From Echinarachnius parma (lineage: Eukaryota; Echinodermata; Echinoidea; Clypeasteroida; Echinarachniidae): a stretch of 64,000 nucleotides of DNA. Below, piece by piece: positions 6,672 through 62,519 of this stretch. Both the position numbers and the translations under genes were made by a program. The notes beneath the pieces were generated by a model that had not been told where the DNA came from, did not search any database, and saw nothing but the letters and a program-made list of their open reading frames with translations. Each line of letters starts with the position of its first letter. Position 1 is the stretch's first letter. The stretch spans positions 1 through 64,000 of the forward strand of contig JBAMJV010007206.1 of the NCBI GenBank assembly GCA_037951105.1. Reading direction: 5' to 3'.

Positions 6672-8366
6672 TTATAAAAAGGTATCACGAGTTTCCAATA
6701 CATCACAAAGCTGCTCTAAATTGTTGTACAATGTGTGAAGCGTCCCCCCATCGCGTTTGGTGTCGTCTCGCGACATGGCATGCGACGATGTGGTGGAGGA
6801 GGTCGACAAATTTCTCAGCCCCTTCCGTGGTTCTTCGTACGTCGATTTGCCAACAACGACCAGCGTGGGGTTGGCTGGATTGACGTGTTTGATCTCCGGG
6901 ACGAAAACTTCCTTTTCGTAAGACGGTCGTTGTAGGTGGTCATAGACTAGGGACATTCTCCCGACGTCGTCGTCCGCTGCATCCATAGCCGTTATTTCAG
7001 TGGTCGTTGTCATGGTTGCCATGGTCGCTGATGGAGCAACGCCGTAGGAGGATCTTGGAAAAGTGGCAGCGCTGTAGCAAAAGGAGCCGTCAAGAATGTT
7101 TGTGGCGGACTGATTCTGGTAGATGTTTTTAGGCATGTTAGGCCCGTAGTTACCGTAAATGCTCTCACCATCCATGTCACTCGTACGCACCAGGTCAACT
7201 TTGGTCATCGTACTCTCGTTGTCAAGCCTTTGATCATGTTTATTTTCTCGATGGGTTGCCTGTGGACTTTCAATGGTCAAGTTGCTATAAATGGAACAAG
7301 ATGAGGTTTCTCTGCGGTGTGTCTGTTGAAAGTTCTGACTAAGCATTTCATCCCTATTTTCCGAGATTGTGGAGCGATCCTCAGATTTGCCATGCCCGAC
7401 TTTCGGTGATTTGTCCATCTTTTGCATGGTTTGAGTAGAAACATCCCTGGCGTTATTAAAGACACGATTCATGGACTGGTTGCTGCCGGGCCGGTAGACA
7501 CTACCAGCATCCAACTCACTACCAAGGTGATGTCTTCCAGCAGATGCAGTGTGTGTCTCAGACACTGATGATGATGTTGAAGGTAACATGCTTCTGGAGG
7601 TGTTACTGAGTCTTCCGTACCTGGTATCAGCCATCGGCGGTACGTTTTCATCAGGCGTACTGTTGGTAGGAATATCGGAAACAAAGCAGTAAGTGTTTTC
7701 AGCATTGATCTTCTTACTTTCAACTTCTTTCCTCGTGCTTTCTTTCCTATTTCCGCCTGTCTTGCTTTTCGTGCTTTCTTTCTCTGCAAGATGAACTTTT
7801 ATACCGATCTGCTTTGTCTCTGCAGAGTCGAATGTCATCACTGAATACCTCTTCGCAGCTAGGTCGGCGCCGGGGTGAGTGCCCGATCGTGGCCGCGACT
7901 TCACAACTGCATCGGCTGACGAGTCTCGTTGTTTAAGGGACTCCAGGCTCGTCCTCGGAGGAAGGGCCGGTACGCTGAGGGTTGTCGGTTGGGATCGGAG
8001 AAGCGGATCCGTTGGTTGTTTTCTGTCTCGATGGTGACTGCTGAACGATTCTCTCGGACATGTCGGACTGTCACGGTGATTTGGTTCACACGTTGACTGT
8101 GGAGGTAAGATCGACATTTCGATGCCCTCCTCGTTCCCACAGCTAGCCGTACTCACGTTGTATCGCTCGTCATCATGTTGACCTTGTGATACCTCTTTCC
8201 GACGGGATCCCACCGATCTTCTATTTCTCTTCCGACAACACTTTCTCATGCATATGCAAAGAAAGCAGAAAACTAAAATAACCAGTGCTCCTAAAATGCC
8301 GAGCTGTATGAGGGAATCATATAGTTCGATTAGTTGGACAAATGTCGGAGCGGTAGCGGTAGTCAT
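6672..8366 (-). CDS. Single-pass transmembrane adaptor-like protein, 564 aa (LAT/PAG-type layout), novel
   Basis: A single uninterrupted frame. An in-frame TAA lies 30 bases upstream of the ATG (8397-8399) with no AG between them, so this ATG is the natural start; position -3 is A. Residues 1-22 are short and lack a signal peptide. Residues 23-40 form one hydrophobic helix with Cys34, 37 and 39, followed by Cys43-Cys44 and a basic RKRNRR stop-transfer stretch, which could be palmitoylated. The rest is polar, Ser/Thr-rich and probably disordered. Visible short motifs are PALPPR (133-138, a PxxPxR SH3 ligand), four YxN sites (Y360 YSNL, Y404 YGNY, Y416 YQNQ, Y547 YNNL), ITIM-like SIYSNL (358-363) and LVYDHL (473-478), Y510 in YEEP, and a C-terminal TFL that fits a class I PDZ ligand. 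Vertebrate LAT, LAX1 and PAG1 share this plan: a tiny ectodomain, cysteines at the membrane, many SH2-docking tyrosines and, in PAG1, a PDZ tail. No sequence homology to them is claimed. The role as a signalling scaffold at the plasma membrane is inferred. It may be intronless. Confidence 0.8.
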   Translation of the reverse strand: MTTATAPTFVQLIELYDSLIQLGILGALVILVFCFLCICMRKCCRKRNRRSVGSRRKEVSQGQHDDERYNVSTASCGNEEGIEMSILPPQSTCEPNHRDSPTCPRESFSSHHRDRKQPTDPLLRSQPTTLSVPALPPRTSLESLKQRDSSADAVVKSRPRSGTHPGADLAAKRYSVMTFDSAETKQIGIKVHLAEKESTKSKTGGNRKESTRKEVESKKINAENTYCFVSDIPTNSTPDENVPPMADTRYGRLSNTSRSMLPSTSSSVSETHTASAGRHHLGSELDAGSVYRPGSNQSMNRVFNNARDVSTQTMQKMDKSPKVGHGKSEDRSTISENRDEMLSQNFQQTHRRETSSCSIYSNLTIESPQATHRENKHDQRLDNESTMTKVDLVRTSDMDGESIYGNYGPNMPKNIYQNQSATNILDGSFCYSAATFPRSSYGVAPSATMATMTTTTEITAMDAADDDVGRMSLVYDHLQRPSYEKEVFVPEIKHVNPANPTLVVVGKSTYEEPRKGLRNLSTSSTTSSHAMSRDDTKRDGGTLHTLYNNLEQLCDVLETRDTFL

Positions 8367-8399
8367 AGTGGTGGGTATATTTATATAAGAATAAGGTTA

Positions 8400-10150
8400 A
8401 AAACTCTTCAGGTATGTAACAGTATCTCCTCAGTTGTACATAATTATCCACCATGTACATATGCAGTTTAATTAGTAGTTTCCGTAAGCCTGTTCAAAAT
8501 AACAATCGACGGACTCCTTTACTCCACTTTACTCAAACCCATGTTAATGGTGGCGACTAATGTTCTGTGCTGCCTTCACTGGTTCTCGCCTTGTCATATA
8601 AATGTTTTCCGCTGCGCTTGCAAAGCGATACCAAATAACACGAGGATCAAAACAGAACAATGGTTAGCAAATAAATATCTTTCTGATCAAGACATATTTT
8701 ATAGAATATTAATCAATTAGTTTTCAGTCAGTGGCGTAGCGAGTGTGACCCTAAATGTGACAACGCTATTGATATGGAGGTTGGAGGAGAGAAGGTGGGG
8801 CAACGTTACAAAGTAAATTATTAATATGTGTTTAATGTCCGTCCCTGATACATTTGTTGTCCTTTTTATTTGACCAAAAAGGGAACAATATCATCAAGGA
8901 GCAGGATTGTTTGCAGGGGCAGGTTTACCCCCTGCCCCTGCCCTAAATGTCCTGTTCATACGTTTTATGATTGAATTATATACCTACTTTCGGTTCTACA
9001 ATATAATGTCGACCTTTGTGTTCAGCCCACCATTTTTGAAGTGTCATGAAAAGTAAAAAGCACTCCATAGAACTTACTTTCAAAAGTATCATCAATTAAA
9101 TGTGTCGGTCTGTGGGTTTCACATCTTGCAAAGAAGAAATATTATCAAAGTATCAGAAGGCTGCATTGTTGGCATGAGCGCAACAGTCGTGATATTTACG
9201 ATTTTGTTAACGATTTCTCAGGCCCTGTTCCGAGTAATGTAAATTTGAACAAGAAGCATGTCAAACTGCAAGTGTTGATGGTTCGTATGGTTGGCATGGT
9301 GACCCCAAAAGGTACTTCTTGATGATTGTTAATTTGTAGGTAGGGATCAAGGAGCATCGCGATCATTGTTATGTATATTCAAACATTTCACACGTTGACA
9401 TGTCTTGTCCCTTCTTGGGGAATGCTTTGATCTGTCCCGATGTAGCATCAGCAGTTTCCTTGTGGCTTGTGGCGTCCTGCTGGCGTCAGGAACCACTTCC
9501 TGGTGATATTGTATCGATGGCCATTCGAATCATAGATCTAGGATATGTGTACGTGGGATTTGAGGCCCATACATAGCAACATGCCTGATCCATTTGTGGC
9601 AGTTTGCTCGTTAGAACAACGCCATCTTGCGTTGAGAACGGCAAGTCGAACATGGCAAAAGAAGTTTGAATCTCGCTTGTCTTTCGAATTTGTTCCTATT
9701 CTTTACTTCTTTTTGTTCTCCGTTTGTATCTCTTTCAAAAGTAATAAATCATGACAATTATTTGACTGCGTTTTTTGTAAACACTCTCTTCGGTGTGCAT
9801 TAAATTAACACTTCATGACTTTACGGACTTATTAGTTGTCGTGTGCATTGTGTCCTGTAGTTTTACTTTCGGTCAAGGAAAGAAAAAGTAGAGTTTCATC
9901 TTATCAAATCTGTCAATGGCGATATTAATTTATTCCCATTGAGATGTGGACATGACAAGAACGACTAAAAAAAATTACAGTACTAAAGAAACGTGTAGGC
10001 GTGCTCCAATGTTTCTTATCAGCGGTCGGTGACAGCTTTTAATACTTTGTTTTGTTTTTTGTTTAAGGAAACATATACAGTAATTATTTCAATATCAGTG
10101 TGACTGTGAGTCCAATGGGCATAATGGGATGTCTTATGGTTTGGCACTTC
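8400..10150. other. Non-coding stretch upstream of the adaptor-like gene
   Basis: Probably holds the 5' flank of the 6672-8366 gene. A hAT-like terminus CAGTGGCGTAGC is present at about 8731, but no partner end was found. No gene seen. Confidence 0.4.
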
Positions 10151-10549: not shown

Positions 10550-11101
10550 TTAAAGGGATAGTTGAGTTTTGGTAGAGAGGGCGCTAGACTACTTTTTTTT
10601 TTTGTGAGGTAATGAAAAACTGAGTGTAAAATTTGAAAGAGCATAATATTTAAATAATAAAATCATCTTTGTTTGATCAAAATCGGTTCAGAGACGGCTG
10701 AAATATCCATAAATAATAAACCCGGGGCCCCGGGTTTATTAGAGAATTTTGAACCAGCCGTTAAAAATTCAAGAAAAATGCTTCCTCTTTTCAAAAAGTT
10801 ACAAAATAGGTATTTAAATAGTTGTTGGTTATTTCTCTATCTAATCAGTATTTCAACAAAGCATCACATGCACAATATTTTATTCAAAATGGTTGAAACC
10901 GATGAGTGTTTAGAGAGCGCCCTCTTACGTTGTAACGGCTCTTTTTGAATGATAACATGATTTTGACTACGTCATTTGTAATTTTGTGTTCCTTTCTAGT
11001 TATAACTATTAGTTTGTAATGTAATGATGCAGGTTTTGGTTACTAAAATTAAGTTTCACCAAAACTGTACTCTCCTTACCAGAACTCAACTATCCCTTTA
11101 A
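10550..11101 (+). mobile_element. TTAA-flanked MITE, family M1, copy 1
   Basis: 552 bp with ends TTAAAGGGATAGTTGAGTTT and its reverse complement. The body has ATCGGTTCAGAGACGGCTGA, a central palindrome around GGGGCCCC and a TGTAACGGCTCTTTTTGA block. This is the A orientation, shared with copies 6 and 8. Small open frames inside are not conserved. Confidence 0.9.
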
Positions 11102-34665: not shown

Positions 34666-35608
34666 TTGCCGGTGAAGAGAATAACCCATCATTCAGAAGA
34701 AGATACCGACGAATAGCAGTCGATATTTCTTTTTTCTCTGCTGAAAGTCTGCTTGAAATGTTGCTTTTATAATTTCATTTCATCGAAGAATTATTTCATG
34801 TGATTGCTATTCTGTTTTCTTCGAAAAGCTGAACTCCATCGTTACTCGTCTTTTGGATGCTATTCACCTCTTCAATTCTCACCGCAATCGTTTTCTCACT
34901 TAGGATTTCACTAGTGAGAAAAGAGATTGAACTCTTGCTCAAGCGAACGCGCCAAGTTTGTTTGTATATTCACATCGTCATTAGCGAGATGTTTTAGAAG
35001 ATGTCTTTGAAATAATAACCTGCTCTGTCGCAGAGCCAAAAAAACGCTAATATACTTGATTTAACTTTGAAACTGCCAGACGTGTGGAATGTTGGATACA
35101 GCGTTTCACAACCGGCTAGCTACTTCAAGTTAATCGAGGTAATGAGAAGCGGTTGCTACAAAATATCACCTTGATTTCTGAACATCGATCACTACATTTA
35201 GTCGGAAGTTAAACCATTTCTTCTCATTTACAACTTCGAATTTGGCAAACTATTTCGAATTTCACAATGTTTTCTGTCTGCAAAGGATGTTGTTTCCGAC
35301 GAAATGTCAATTAAGGTGATGCTAATTAGCCTGTATTGCTCCGCTTAATCCAATTTCTTCAAGTTAAAGGTCACAAATTGTAGATTTACTGAAAACCAAT
35401 TACTTGTTGAAAGCTGATACACGTAAAGATTGGCGTAATTTCTGTAATTCAAGTACTTTTTACGTCTCGCCAATTTGAACTTGAATCCACCATAACATAT
35501 CCCTCATGGGAAGAATCCTTTGGAGGACAAGTCTGGTGCGGACAGCCTTTTGATCTTCTGCCAAAGCTGAAATCTACGGAATAAGGGGAAGACATCGAAT
35601 ATATCACC

Positions 35609-36922
35609 ATGCAGCCGTACACTGGAGCCATTCGGGATGTTGGGACCACCACGGAGTGGATAACGCTCCTTGAGTTTGATTACGAGTACTCGAGTCCAAA
35701 ATTCGTAAGCACGATGTCGTCACAAAAGGACATCGAAGACACGATGTCGCCTCAACCAAACTACGGAGACACGATGTCGCCAAGACCGAGCTTCGAAGAC
35801 ATAATATTACCACGTTCAAACTTCGAGTTCACCGACTACAACCAGCGCATCGTCATCTCCGTCCTCATATGCATCATTTTCATCGTCGGTGTCATCGGGA
35901 ATACACTAGTCTTGATCGCAGTCGCTATGTCGAGGAAGCTTCAGACGTCGACAAACGCTTTTGTGGCGAGTCTTGCAATGACGGACTTACTGACTTGCCT
36001 TGTCCTGCCGTTTCAGATGACAGGTGTCCTGAGCACCAGTGGGTGGGTGCTACCTTTCTTTCTCTGCACCATCATCGGCGGCATCGCAATTTCGTCAGCT
36101 ATCGCGAGCGTTATCTCACTGGCATTGATCGCCATCAATCGATACGTCATCATAACGTTGGACCGCACACGCTACGCCCGTATCTTCTCTACACGCAACG
36201 TAGGGATGATGATCCTATTCGCGTGGTTCTTTCCTCTCATCACCATGGTCTTCCCGCAAGCGATCGGATACGGTCGATTGGGATACACCAAGAAGTACAA
36301 GCTGTGTCTGATGGATGGCGACCACTACTACGCGTTCCTCTACGAGTTCGGCGCCGCCGCCATTCAGCTGACGTGCTTTGTCGTCATCATCGTCTGCTAT
36401 GGGATGATCTACCGATTCCTCAGGAGGAAGATGTTCGTCTTCCAGCGCCCATCTGCGAAGGTTTATTATAACGACGGGAATTCAAATCGCGTCATTGGAC
36501 CGCTGATACCAACCAATGCACACGTGGTAGCGGTGGAGTGTAATTCCAGTGACAATTCCAGCGTTGACCATTCGCACGACGACGCCACGACGACACATTC
36601 GGCATTTTCCGGAACCACTCCGAAGAGGAAGCGAAAGATGCCGACGAGACGCGAAGTGCAGATTACCCGGAACCTGTTCTACGTGGTTTGTGCATTCTTC
36701 ATCTGTATCATCCCGTATGCCCTCACCATCCCGGTGCCCAACAGCGGGCCGGTTCTGGTCTACTTGGGCGTGCTTGTCACCGGGTCCAGCGTCATCAACC
36801 CCATCATCTATGGATTCAACCACCCGCATTTCAGGATCGTCTTCAGGGCGTTCCTGCGGTGGGACTTGGCTAAAATACCGCAACCGACCGCTCTGGTCCG
36901 GTTTATTCGAGGAAAGACATGA
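35609..36922 (+). CDS. Single-exon rhodopsin-class (class A) G-protein-coupled receptor, orphan, 437 aa
   Basis: Seven hydrophobic helices are visible at about 81-107, 115-138, 150-176, 197-217, 243-268, 355-375 and 383-402. Class A signatures: Asn98 in GN of TM1, SLAMTD with Asp126 in TM2, Cys153 and Cys233 positioned for the TM3-ECL2 disulfide, NRY (177-179) in place of DRY, Trp206 in TM4, Pro369 in TM6 and NPIIY (397-401) in TM7. The usual CWxP of TM6 is CIIP, so the toggle tryptophan is missing. NRY and the TM2/TM4 flavour recall the melatonin-receptor-like, GPR84-like and moody-like orphan group of invertebrates; the ligand cannot be read from sequence. Intracellular loop 3 is long (about 269-354), with a KRKRK basic patch and a Ser/His/Asp-rich stretch. 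The extracellular N-terminus (about 80 residues) has four 10-residue repeats and no NxS/T site. An in-frame TAA at 35582-35584 fixes the start, and -3 is A. The locally higher GC content and open frame support real coding. Confidence 0.93.
   Translation: MQPYTGAIRDVGTTTEWITLLEFDYEYSSPKFVSTMSSQKDIEDTMSPQPNYGDTMSPRPSFEDIILPRSNFEFTDYNQRIVISVLICIIFIVGVIGNTLVLIAVAMSRKLQTSTNAFVASLAMTDLLTCLVLPFQMTGVLSTSGWVLPFFLCTIIGGIAISSAIASVISLALIAINRYVIITLDRTRYARIFSTRNVGMMILFAWFFPLITMVFPQAIGYGRLGYTKKYKLCLMDGDHYYAFLYEFGAAAIQLTCFVVIIVCYGMIYRFLRRKMFVFQRPSAKVYYNDGNSNRVIGPLIPTNAHVVAVECNSSDNSSVDHSHDDATTTHSAFSGTTPKRKRKMPTRREVQITRNLFYVVCAFFICIIPYALTIPVPNSGPVLVYLGVLVTGSSVINPIIYGFNHPHFRIVFRAFLRWDLAKIPQPTALVRFIRGKT
35708..35827 (+). 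repeat. Coding 30-bp tandem repeat, four units, in the GPCR N-terminus
   Basis: Four successive 30-base units start at 35708, 35738, 35768 and 35798. They encode residues 34-73 as STMSSQKDIE, DTMSPQPNYG, DTMSPRPSFE and DIILPRSNFE. Units 2 and 3 are closest; units 1 and 4 are diverged. The frame is kept because the unit is a multiple of three. Confidence 0.9.
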
Positions 36923-43606: not shown

Positions 43607-44421
43607 TCACTGTCCGACTACATCATGATCGTCCGAATGCTGCGGGACATCGAGGTGAATGACAACGTTCTCGTGATCGACGTGTTGTGGAGAAGCGTGG
43701 GTGCCGTGATCGTCAACGATCTCGCTCGAGTTCCGTTTCTCACTGCTTCCCCGAGGTTCTTTCGCGGAGTGCCGCTTCTCATACCGACGTTCGTTCGCGG
43801 CGGCTTGTGGCTGCGTGTTGGGTTGTGGTTGTCTCCTAGCGCTAACACGCTGGATCGGGCTCCTCTTCGCGTTGATTGGGACCGGCGTCTCCTTTTGATA
43901 CGCGTCGTTTTGGCTACCACGATTCGGTCCCTGGTCGTCGTTGACCTCGCCGTTGTCGTTCTCGTTTCGAAGATAGATCCCGAAGCTTCTAAGGTTGACG
44001 GGCTCATCAGATGCTAGCTTATCCTCATCCTTGATAATTACGTCATCATTCTTTACCAGTCCATCTTTTCCGCTTTCAACCTGACCACCGTCGTTGCCGG
44101 CAACGCCATGGTCATCGCGGTCTGACTCGTCGGCCATCAGCTCGCGGTTGAGCAGCTCGGCGGCCAGTCGGTCGTCGGCATCCGGGTAGAAGTTAGGCGC
44201 AGAGACAACTCTTCCCCCACCAGCGGCTGCTGCCGCCTTGGTCCGCTGCAACACCTGCTGGCGATGTGGCAGCAGGGTCGATACCTTGAGGATGCGCTTC
44301 TCCAGCTCTTGGAAGGTGATCTGGCGGGAACGCTTCCGGGTGTTGAGCAGGCTGGGGTTGAAGAGGAGGGTGTAGGCTAGCTGCCAGCGGAGCACGGCAC
44401 GGGAATGGGGCGAGATGCTCT
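43607..44421 (-). CDS. STRA6: STRA6-like gene, terminal exon with long hydrophilic tail
   Basis: The exon begins after CTCCCATGCAG and runs to a stop, encoding about 270 residues. The phase (Gly/Glu junction after phase 1) fits the previous exon. It opens with RAVLRWQLAYTLLFNPSLL; an AYTLL-x-NP-x-L box is characteristic of the cytoplasmic C-terminal part of STRA6, the plasma-membrane retinol channel (receptor for RBP4 in vertebrates, regulated with calmodulin). The remaining roughly 235 residues are unlike the short vertebrate tail: KR-rich, then a helix-prone TFQELEKRILKV, a poly-Ala stretch, then Asp/Asn/His/Gln-rich disorder. The seven exons in the window total about 506 residues, against about 667 for whole human STRA6. 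Translation upstream of 44421 in the same open frame (to 44644) is repeat-derived and not exon. The function in retinoid uptake is inferred from family. Confidence 0.88.
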
Positions 44422-44467
44422 CTGCATGGGAGATGAAATCAATAATAATCAACAAATTATGAGGGGT

Positions 44468-45370
44468 TGTTGCACCACAAATTGTCGTACCTGCACAAAT
44501 TGTCGTAGGCGACAATTTGTGCAAAATTTCACGCCACAAATTGTCGCCTCCTGCACAAATTGTCGTTTGCGACAATTTGTGTTGCTCTCGCCGTCCCCAT
44601 ACCCGGCGACAATTTGTGAAATCACGTAAAACCTCACACCACAAATTGTCGCATATTGCACGAATTGTCGTCAGTCGCTGTCTTCAAGCTCCAAAGATGA
44701 TGATGATGATAATAATAATAATCAGTGTTGGTGGGCTCGAGGCCGGCCTCGGCGTCGACACCAGTGGAATATTTTTTACGAAGGAGAGACCGAGATCCGT
44801 CAACAAATCTCGAGGCCGAGACCGAGACTATTTGGTTTTGGGGGCCGAGACCATTAAAGAACACTACAAATTGGCCTCGAGACAACTTAAAAAAAAAAAA
44901 ACAAGCCATGTGTGAGCATGTGTTAATATTCGTTTTTATGTGATTTTCGGTTGTATTTCTGCTTTTCATTCAGTTTCTAGCTAGGTACCTTTCATGGGTG
45001 TTTGTGAGCTGAGGGGGGGGGGGGGGGGGGGGGCAATGATTTGTCCCCTTTTTTTTTTTTTTTCTTGTCTTTTTTGTATTTTCGTTTGTGAATACATGGT
45101 TTATTTACCTATAATGTTGGTGCGTTGGTATATATCCGTATGTCAAGAATGATCATTTTAATCCAAAATATATGTCATTATGGCTTTGAACAGGACCGTA
45201 GGTGTGGCGACAATTTGTGGTGCCAGCTACCAGCACAAATTGTCGCCGTCGCCTCCACAAATTGTCGCAAACGACAATTTGTGCAGAAAGCGACAATTTG
45301 TGGTGTCAACATTTTGCACAAATTGTCGCCTACGACAATTTGTGCAGGTACGACAATTTGTGGTGCAACA
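44468..45370. mobile_element. Fold-back element built of the 12-mer CACAAATTGTCG
   Basis: Two arms (44468 to about 44668 and about 45200-45370) are reverse complements in overall order and flank an interior of about 530 bp. Together they hold 16 exact copies of CACAAATTGTCG in either orientation plus one degenerate copy. Termini TGTTGCACCAC and GTGGTGCAACA. The flanks are GGGGT on both sides (44463-44467 and 45371-45375), a probable 5-bp (perhaps 6-bp AGGGGT) target duplication. The interior has (GAT)n/(AAT)n, a CTCGAGGCCGAGACCGAGAC-like segment, poly-A and poly-G, but no transposase. Confidence 0.88.
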
Positions 45371-59499: not shown

Positions 59500-59990
59500 A
59501 GGAGGAGCAGGAGGAGGAGTAAGAGGAGGAGGAGGAGGGTGGAAGAGGAGGAGGGGGAGGAGAATAGGGAGGCGGAGGAGGTGTGGATGGGGGAGGTGGT
59601 GGATGGGAGAGGAGGAGGGAGGAGGGGGAGGAGAATAGGGAGGCGGAGGAGGTGTGGATGGGAGAGGTGGTGGGTGGGGGAGGAGGAGGGAGGAGGGGGA
59701 GGAGAATAGGGAGGCGGAGGAGGTGTGGATGGGGGAGGTGGTGGATGGGGGAGGAGGAGGGAGGAGGGGGAGGAGAATAGGGAGGCGGAGGAGGTGTGGA
59801 TGGGGGAGGTGGTGGATGGGGGAGGAGGAGGGAGGAGGGGGAGGAGAATAGGGAGGCGGAGGAGGTGTGGATGGGGGAGGTGGTGGGTGGGGGAGGAGGA
59901 GGGAGAAGGGGAGGAGGGAGAAGGGGAGGAGGAGAGGGAGAAAGAGGTGGAGGAGGAAAAGGCTGGAAAAGGAAAAGAATAAGGGCAAAT
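59500..59990 (+). repeat. Purine-rich 71-bp minisatellite, about five units
   Basis: GGTGTGGATGGGGGAGGTGG landmarks occur 71 bp apart (about 59580, 59651, 59722, 59793, 59864). Almost no pyrimidine except isolated T/C. In the transcribed (minus) sense the tract is C/U-rich and lies just upstream of the 59453 splice acceptor. Long Gly/Arg/Glu frames are composition artefacts. Confidence 0.95.
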
Positions 59991-60083
59991 AAGAGGAATA
60001 TGTAGAGGATGATGACAATGATAAGGAGGATGGTATTGAAAATACAGTGATAAAGAATATGTCAGTTTAAATATCGAGTTCTG

Positions 60084-60108
60084 GTTTTCTTACACGGATC
60101 GAAGTTTT
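60084..60108 (-). pseudogene. Degenerate copy of the 3' end and donor of the 60793-60956 exon
   Basis: Plus-strand 60084-60108 matches 60783-60807 at about 22 of 25 positions, covering the last bases of the exon and the GTAAGAAAAC donor. It lies between the (GAT)n tract and the purine-rich minisatellite. It is too short to be certain, but the splice-donor context is preserved. Confidence 0.4.
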
Positions 60109-60137
60109 TGTAGACTCTTCTGTAGCTTCACATCGGA

Positions 60138-60165
60138 ACGATGATGGTGGTGATGGATGATAATA

Positions 60166-60253
<88 letters not shown>

Positions 60254-60436
60254 CGGCCGATGATGATAATGAAGATGATGATGATGTTGATGATGATGAT
60301 GATGATGCTGACGGACGATGATGATGATGATGATGATGATGATGACTGATGATGATGATGATGTTTATGTTGATAATTATGTTGATGTTGATGATGGCAA
60401 TGATGAAGATGATGATGGTGATGGTGATGGTGATGG

Positions 60437-60475
<39 letters not shown>

Positions 60476-60504
60476 CGGCCGATGATGATGATGAAGATGA
60501 TGAA

Positions 60505-60586
<82 letters not shown>

Positions 60587-60620
60587 TTGATGTTGATGAT
60601 GGTGGTGATGATGATGATAC
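60138..60620. repeat. (GAT)n microsatellite block
   Basis: Several long ATG/GAT trinucleotide runs interrupted by GACGGCCGATGATGAT and GATGTTGATG variants. Poly-Met, poly-Asp, poly-Ser and poly-Ile frames here are artefacts. Confidence 0.95.
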
Positions 60621-61836: not shown

Positions 61837-62153
61837 CTGCAGAGGAAACACACATTGTGAAATGAAAGCATCGTATTGGCATGATGGGTGTCATTTTTAA
61901 AAAGGTGGTGTAAATCGTCATCCTATATTTAAAAGGAATACCACCTTTTTTACAATACAATGTATATTTGGCAATTTAAGCAAAGATACTCTCCAACCTG
62001 TATGATATTGGTCTCCATTACGTCACTAATCCTAATATGCAAAGATATGATAATCTAGAGTGTTATTAATATCTAAGTGGTTTGTGTTAACGTGAATTAC
62101 AATGATAATGAAACACAGTAATGCTAGAAAGAAGAGGTTGCTATGTAGCTTAC

Positions 62154-62271
62154 AGAACGACGTTGAGTATAGCGAGGAAGACTTGGAGTGCGTCCTTGAT
62201 GAGTGGGATGACGAGGGCGCCACTGATCAGGTAAATGACGAAGAACACCATGAACGTCATGATCACGTAGC
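62154..62271 (-). CDS. STRA6: STRA6-like gene, membrane-helix exon
   Basis: A 118-base exon with an AAATGCAG acceptor and GTAAGC donor. It completes a Gly codon with the previous exon and encodes about 39 residues beginning GYVIMTFMVFFVIYLISGA and ending in ILNVVL, with one clear membrane helix followed by an amphipathic stretch. Phase (in 1, out 2) matches both neighbours. The preceding intron is 548 bp. Confidence 0.82.
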
Positions 62272-62519
62272 CTGCATTTTAAGAAATCAATATAAAAATA
62301 TACACATTTTGGGACCAACGCTATATATCATTTTCCTTATCCTCCCCTTCATAGTCCCCATCATCATCTTCAGCATCTTCATCTGCAGTATTATGTCTCC
62401 TCCTTTTAAAATTCATTTGTTGTTATGTTATTTAAATACATATAGGATAAGTAATTATATTTATTATTTCATTTAAGAAAATCTTAGCGTGAGAACCTTT
62501 TTTCTTAAATGTGGTAGCT

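Follow-up and report, generated by a model that had tools for sequence, protein, structure and literature searches.

It has been asked in print, and left open, how invertebrate deuterostomes that lack LAT recruit their SH2 adaptors to the membrane (PMC5431462). In amphioxus, SLP-76, GADS and Itk are present, and the available text of that paper reports that no LAT-like molecule was found and suggests, as one possibility, that an unknown membrane molecule replaces LAT. An open reading frame (ORF) in the window (the whole 64,000-nucleotide stretch of Echinarachnius parma DNA analysed here) raises the question of whether a gene of this kind exists in another deuterostome phylum, for which it is a candidate. 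On the evidence of its translation, we give a probability of roughly one half to the reading that the gene encodes a single-pass scaffold which works most like PAG, has LAT-like Grb2 valence and stands outside both families. Among the papers listed in searches of the open-licence PMC literature (subscription papers lie outside it), none had, judged by title, an echinoderm transmembrane adaptor as its subject.

The ORF occupies positions 6672-8366 of the minus strand. The preliminary description of this DNA had given exactly these borders without the strand, and the frame is real: the other five frames contain 19 to 42 stops each over the same interval. Two out-of-frame ATGs, at 8460 and 8454, lie upstream with frames that extend past the ORF start, and they add to the uncertainty about where the protein begins. 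The E. parma genome contigs (1.2 Gb in 14,790 contigs) were searched with the ORF, which was found once; the search for paralogues returned, besides the ORF itself, one chance-level match (E 9.7) and no paralogue. Because the ORF is single copy, an origin from a repeat or transposon was ruled out. The assembly contains no second haplotype copy of it, though several SH2 loci are represented by near-identical contig pairs. In four of these pairs (L003/L004, L013/L014, L018/L019 and L024/L025) the translated exons are identical or near-identical, and the assembly therefore retains parts of a second haplotype. No relative of the ORF was confirmed in viral contigs or in prokaryote genome contigs, neither of which are meant to hold animals; the pattern stretches recorded there (3 and 22, respectively) include none confirmed as a relative. 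The coordinates of the features discussed below are collected in Table 1.

Table 1. Features of the ORF and its 5' flank, in window coordinates.
Feature	Position	Strand	Remark
ORF, 564 aa, single open frame from ATG to TAA	6672..8366	minus	single copy in genome
In-frame TAA, 11 codons 5' of the ATG; A at -3 of the ATG	8397..8399	minus	
Candidate 3' splice site CAG/CTC, phase 0, directly before the helix (first base after)	8303	minus	
Stronger candidate 3' splice site, presumed 5' UTR (first base after)	8489	minus	top 2.6%
Residues 1-21, predicted short outside segment (intron instead if acceptor 8303 is used)	8304..8366	minus	
Membrane helix, residues 22-40	8247..8303	minus	hydropathy; predicted helix 7-59
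Cluster of Cys34/37/39/43/44 with CxxC at 34-37, putative palmitoylation sites	8235..8267	minus	acylation inferred
PxxPxR, residues 133-138 (PALPPR), possible SH3 ligand	7953..7970	minus	at chance level
[IL]YxN site 1, I359-Y360-S-N362	7281..7292	minus	
[IL]YxN site 2, I403-Y404-G-N406	7149..7160	minus	
[IL]YxN site 3, I415-Y416-Q-N418	7113..7124	minus	
ITIM-like LVYDHL, residues 473-478	6933..6950	minus	pattern count P=0.10
[IL]YxN site 4, L546-Y547-N-N549, within predicted low-confidence C-terminal helix 540-563	6720..6731	minus	
C-terminal TFL, putative class I PDZ ligand	6675..6683	minus	by pattern

The strongest point about this protein was overlooked by the preliminary description, which had claimed four YxN sites. 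All four are present, at Y360, Y404, Y416 and Y547, compared to 0.84 expected from shuffles (P=0.008, uncorrected, YxN being one of 15 patterns counted; YxxL likewise reached 0.008 in the same count). When local composition was kept, in block shuffles of 20, 30 and 60 residues, the P values were 0.018, 0.017 and 0.012. Taken alone, the YxN enrichment is a modest excess. The strongest point lies in the preceding residue: Ile or Leu stands at position -1 of all four YxN tyrosines (SIYSN, SIYGN, NIYQN and TLYNN) and of none of the 11 other cytosolic tyrosines (hypergeometric P=0.0007). Four occurrences of the joint motif [IL]YxN were observed against 0.07 expected. None of 200,000 whole-tail shuffles reached this count, nor did any of 50,000 block shuffles at each of four block sizes. 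The motif is also absent from four further frames of this genome, which are 193-527 aa long. It should be noted that [IL]YxN was spotted post hoc; the effect is so large that it stands even when this is fairly allowed for.

The kinases Lck and c-Src have a strong preference for Ile, Leu or Val at position -1, and ZAP-70 has one for acidic surroundings, according to the available text of PMC5889215. The phosphorylated form, pYxN, is a Grb2 SH2 motif, with an affinity that depends on the Asn at +2 (PMC11367651, available text). The net charge in 13-residue windows around the four [IL]YxN sites of the ORF protein ranges from -2 to +1. Since near-neutral flanks are combined here with the Ile or Leu preferred by the Src family at -1, the kinase predicted to write the sites belongs to the Src family, like that of PAG, and not to the Syk family, like that of LAT. 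The four sites thus look made for phosphorylation by Src-family kinases and for recognition by SH2 domains of the Grb2 type. The comparison with LAT drawn in the preliminary description is weaker than that with PAG, as the acidic flanks for ZAP-70 are lacking and a Src-family residue is found at -1 instead.

The membrane anchor was as previously described. Hydropathy analysis identified a single hydrophobic segment, preceded by 21 residues in the ORF as read, with a peak of 2.99 over the 19 residues from residue 22; from residue 61 onwards, no window exceeds 0.79. The five claimed membrane cysteines are all present within residues 34-44, and a density of five in 15 residues was reached by 0.1% of 5,000 shuffles. 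C34 and C37 form a juxtamembrane CxxC as in LAT (PF15234); such a motif is also found in PAG1/Cbp. A single-sequence AlphaFold model placed a helix at residues 7-59 (pLDDT 91-97 over residues 11-40) and a low-confidence C-terminal helix at 540-563; apart from these two terminal helices the model is no better than low-confidence coil, and pLDDT is below 50 for 481 of the 564 residues. The tail comprises about 520 Ser/Thr-rich residues with 15 of the 16 tyrosines of the protein, and no folded domain was recognised in it (no Pfam domain; low pLDDT). It is predicted to be disordered, single-sequence AlphaFold models being weak evidence of disorder.

The PxxPxR motif noted earlier is present, once, and is no rarer than chance, since 13% of shuffles contain at least one. 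Both ITIM-like sites also exist, as two occurrences of the pattern [SIVL]xYxx[IVL], one of which is at the YxN tyrosine Y360; their count is not rarer than chance either. The C-terminal TFL is present as well, and the protein ends in DTFL, which we take to fit the class I PDZ pattern.

Whether the protein begins at the ATG of the ORF decides between a short adaptor and the tail of a receptor. If the candidate acceptor at 8303 were used, the ORF would form the final exon of a type I receptor gene, with a signal peptide and ectodomain encoded by one or more upstream exons and the same Src-family/Grb2 logic in its tail. We consider this a serious possibility, if the less probable one. The acceptor is in phase 0, ranks among the best 6% of the AG sites on its strand (by a generic matrix), lies exactly at the helix and has a branch-like CTAAT upstream. 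In receptors, exon borders often coincide with membrane helices. Codons 1-21 have a codon-usage score of only 0.4 bits, a low value in line with the receptor reading and uninformative in itself, as 15% of non-coding open stretches equal or exceed it. The stronger acceptor at 8489 argues against the receptor tail, since its use would retain the in-frame stop at 8397-8399 and close the ORF upstream.

The receptor tail would also require exons further upstream, and 27 kb of the minus strand (8.4-35.5 kb) were therefore scanned for codon usage. The score was trained on 1,954 codons of the same genome, 520 of them from the tail of the ORF, so the score of the ORF itself is not independent. It was calibrated on 17 of the 30 SH2 loci fetched, leaving out the training loci L005, L011 and L032 and, as second copies, L004, L006, L009, L012, L014, L019, L023, L025, L028 and L031. 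A score of 20 bits was reached by 8 of these 17 real SH2 exon pieces, and by no open stretch in the 27 kb. From the 9 of 17 that fell short, the chance of missing all exons at 20 bits, if they are independent, is ∼2% for six exons and ∼28% for two. At lower thresholds, the counts on the minus strand were no higher than on the plus strand at 15 bits or more (3 compared to 4) and at 12 bits or more (8 on each), while weaker stretches were commoner on the minus strand (20 compared to 10 at 10 bits, and 34 compared to 24 at 8 bits), an excess in favour of the receptor. In a scan that ran to 43.6 kb, the top scores (up to 31.8 bits) lay antisense to a G protein-coupled receptor (GPCR) gene, at 36.0-36.9 kb, and were excluded from the comparison. 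Pfam searches of all three minus-strand frames over 8.0-38 kb detected no ectodomain and one below-cut-off match, to Leader_Erm; shorter pieces over 8.4-18.2 kb gave only below-cut-off matches to a disordered repeat, and the plus strand over 8-28 kb gave none. The control for these searches was mixed: the GPCR domain was recovered, and a 31-residue RBP_receptor piece, matched by the bare ORF that carries it, was missed, which means that short or unknown exons can escape detection. For this reason, and because of the excess of weak minus-strand stretches, the receptor tail is retained as an alternative. The preliminary description had named as a case against itself that the ORF is only the tail end of some receptor whose ectodomain is large; with no strong ectodomain exon found upstream, a large multi-exon ectodomain is unlikely, while a small one is possible.

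Two further readings concern the identity of the protein. That it is a true, if extremely diverged, orthologue of PAG1, LAT or some other named transmembrane adaptor of vertebrates is highly improbable in our judgement, even though the parts follow each other in the order found in PAG (outside segment, helix, cysteines, SH3 ligand, tyrosines, PDZ end; PMC4861716, available text). In a Pfam search of the protein up to E=10, whose filters drop most matches above E about 0.1, nothing came near a cut-off; TMEM154 (0.27) and one bacterial family (6.4) were reported. The former (PF15102) scored 11.5 bits against a cut-off of 30.3 and covered only residues 27-72. No PDB sequence match was obtained up to E=10. 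The preliminary description had proposed a profile check against LAT, LAX, PAG and NTAL, and none of these families was matched by the protein up to E=10. Genome-wide, the PAG (PF15347), LAT (PF15234) and LAX (PF15681) models had no match up to E=1, and the LAT2/NTAL model (PF15703) had one chance-level match elsewhere (E 0.59) and none at the ORF. Among 14 control genomes, none had a match to PAG or LAT2, and the only matches to LAT and LAX, all below cut-off, were in Corynebacterium glutamicum; in the absence of a true positive there, the genome-wide result is weak evidence. The amphioxus search mentioned above (PMC5431462) also speaks against an orthologue of LAT. Judged by its sequence, the ORF protein is no LAT or PAG. 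It is likewise improbable, though less so, that it serves at the membrane in some other capacity (at a junction, cilium or synapse, or in trafficking) and has its YxN sites by accident. Such a protein would fit the chance-level SH3 and ITIM patterns and the lack of immune context in the scanned neighbourhood, where the nearest recognised gene, a rhodopsin-type GPCR, is 27 kb away and Pfam coverage of 1-6.6 kb consisted of a single ORF, which had no match. Against it stands the joint count of [IL]YxN, which lies far outside the shuffles.

The previously proposed design, a membrane-tethered, predicted disordered, multi-tyrosine scaffold that is unrelated to LAT and PAG or very diverged from them, fits these results. 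The role given to it there, in immune or adhesion signalling, is conjectural. The grouping of LAT, LAX1 and PAG1 was too broad, because LAX lacks a palmitoylation motif according to the available text of PMC4861716. The same text describes transmembrane adaptors as proteins that expose only a few residues outside, cross the membrane with one helix and carry tyrosines along an extended tail, and among them the design of the ORF protein is closest to PAG. PAG1/Cbp shares with it a short outside segment (predicted here), one helix, palmitoylation (here candidate), a long tyrosine-rich tail, SH3-binding prolines and a PDZ C-terminus (both putative here); it is also a substrate of LYN, a kinase of the Src family (PMC4861716). 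It differs in having two proline-rich stretches, compared to one PxxPxR, and a VTRL C-terminus, compared to TFL (PMC4861716); moreover, the ORF protein has no sequence match to PAG1 and carries four [IL]YxN sites, with no Csk docking tyrosine assigned.

Other membrane proteins resemble it in part. The available texts of PMC10079008 and PMC3291652 describe LAT (and LAT2/NTAL) with a very short outside segment, several phosphotyrosine motifs, two palmitoylated cysteines at the helix and a Grb2 valence of up to three. The ORF protein has no sequence match to LAT. A PLC-gamma site of the YLVV type is found at 0 of its 16 tyrosines, and LAT is not known to have a PDZ C-terminal end. LAX1 is a transmembrane adaptor with multiple Grb2 motifs (PMC4861716), and differs in the palmitoylation motif and in the missing profile match. 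PRR7 combines SH2, SH3 and PDZ ligand motifs in a transmembrane adaptor (PMC5033326, available text); it is proline-rich with WW motifs, whereas the ORF protein has no Pfam match of such a kind. Amphioxus FrLRR is a Grb2-recruiting membrane receptor of an invertebrate deuterostome, described in the available text of PMC10199209 as having a folate-receptor and LRR ectodomain and a helix at its C-terminus, in which it differs from the ORF protein.

In the PAG-like scaffold that we favour, the protein would span the membrane once with its N-terminus outside, exposing a very short segment and holding a mostly disordered tail in the cytosol. The membrane cysteines would be acylated and keep it where Src-family kinases sit, and these kinases would phosphorylate Y360, Y404, Y416 and Y547 directly. 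Each pYxN may then bind the SH2 domain of a Grb2-type adaptor. According to models in the available text of PMC3291652, a Grb2-SOS superaggregate is possible for trivalent LAT and impossible for a bivalent one. As three Grb2 sites per molecule, and not two, allow Grb2-SOS cross-linking, the four [IL]YxN sites would suffice for a network, and a signalling cluster could be nucleated at the membrane. The C-terminal TFL might tie the protein to a PDZ protein and thereby to the cortex or to junctions. Its origin would be independent of the vertebrate adaptors, or its divergence beyond recognition. More tentatively, and with rather more doubt than belief, we propose that this is an echinoderm-own, separately evolved LAT/PAG-like scaffold, a four-valent Grb2 platform written by Src-family kinases, which would achieve in a single step what LAT achieves after ZAP-70. 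If true, a multivalent membrane scaffold would have evolved convergently in this case. With an actual echinoderm gene at hand, in which the Src-to-Grb2 motif is strong and repeated, the question of how SH2 adaptors reach the membrane becomes testable.

A search with an SH2 model gave 64 matches in the genome up to E=1e-4, a count that includes haplotype pairs as well as partial exons. The exon at L003 was identified as Csk (E 1.2e-31 to CSK), and its presence suggests that a Csk/Src-type system is likely to exist in this genome. Two other single-exon fragments were less clear: the exon at L024 matched SHP2 (1.1e-10) slightly better than GRB2 (2.7e-9), and for that at L022 the match to SHP2 (9.4e-14) was a little ahead of those to FRK (4e-12) and Lck (7.5e-11); neither is firmly named. 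No Grb2-like motif words were found in the 1.5-kb flanks of L024, and a Grb2 gene was not firmly identified.

Several other loci were recognised in the window. A repeat of ∼450 bp at about 10550-11000, upstream of the ORF gene, has 39 further near-full copies with 95-97% identity among the matches listed (40 of 5,080 candidates scored). The GPCR gene at 35585-36922 (plus strand) is of the rhodopsin type, has a single exon (7tm_1, E 6.2e-39) and is single in the genome; by sequence, the PDB entries closest to it are 5-HT1 receptors for serotonin. The frame of 358 codons at 43607-44683 (minus strand) matches the C-terminal 31 positions of RBP_receptor below the cut-off (E 3.3e-5) and is possibly the last exon of a gene. 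Long tandem arrays occupy 59500-60618; they comprise a G-rich unit of 71 bp and a run of GAT over some 480 bases. A 126-codon frame at 62096-62473 (plus strand) matches two viral models below cut-off (E 0.008 and 0.036), most likely by chance from composition.

The guess of the preliminary description that the DNA came from a deuterostome was borne out by the mitochondrial cox1 gene, found at L035 on a contig of 19.7 kb (C14600); the code and the neighbours of this gene point to an echinoderm, probably from the sea urchins or sea cucumbers. Within the gene there are one AAA at a conserved Asn, four AGA at Ser and 12 in-frame TGA codons, and the positions that we take to be conserved lysines are all AAG, a codon use which fits the echinoderm code. 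Mitochondrial genomes of this kind are typically shorter than 19.7 kb, and the ends of the contig perhaps overlap. Beside cox1 lie tRNA-Arg, nad4L-like and cox2-like frames (named by eye) and tRNA-Lys; the order cox1, tRNA-Arg, nad4L, cox2, tRNA-Lys is that of sea urchins and sea cucumbers.
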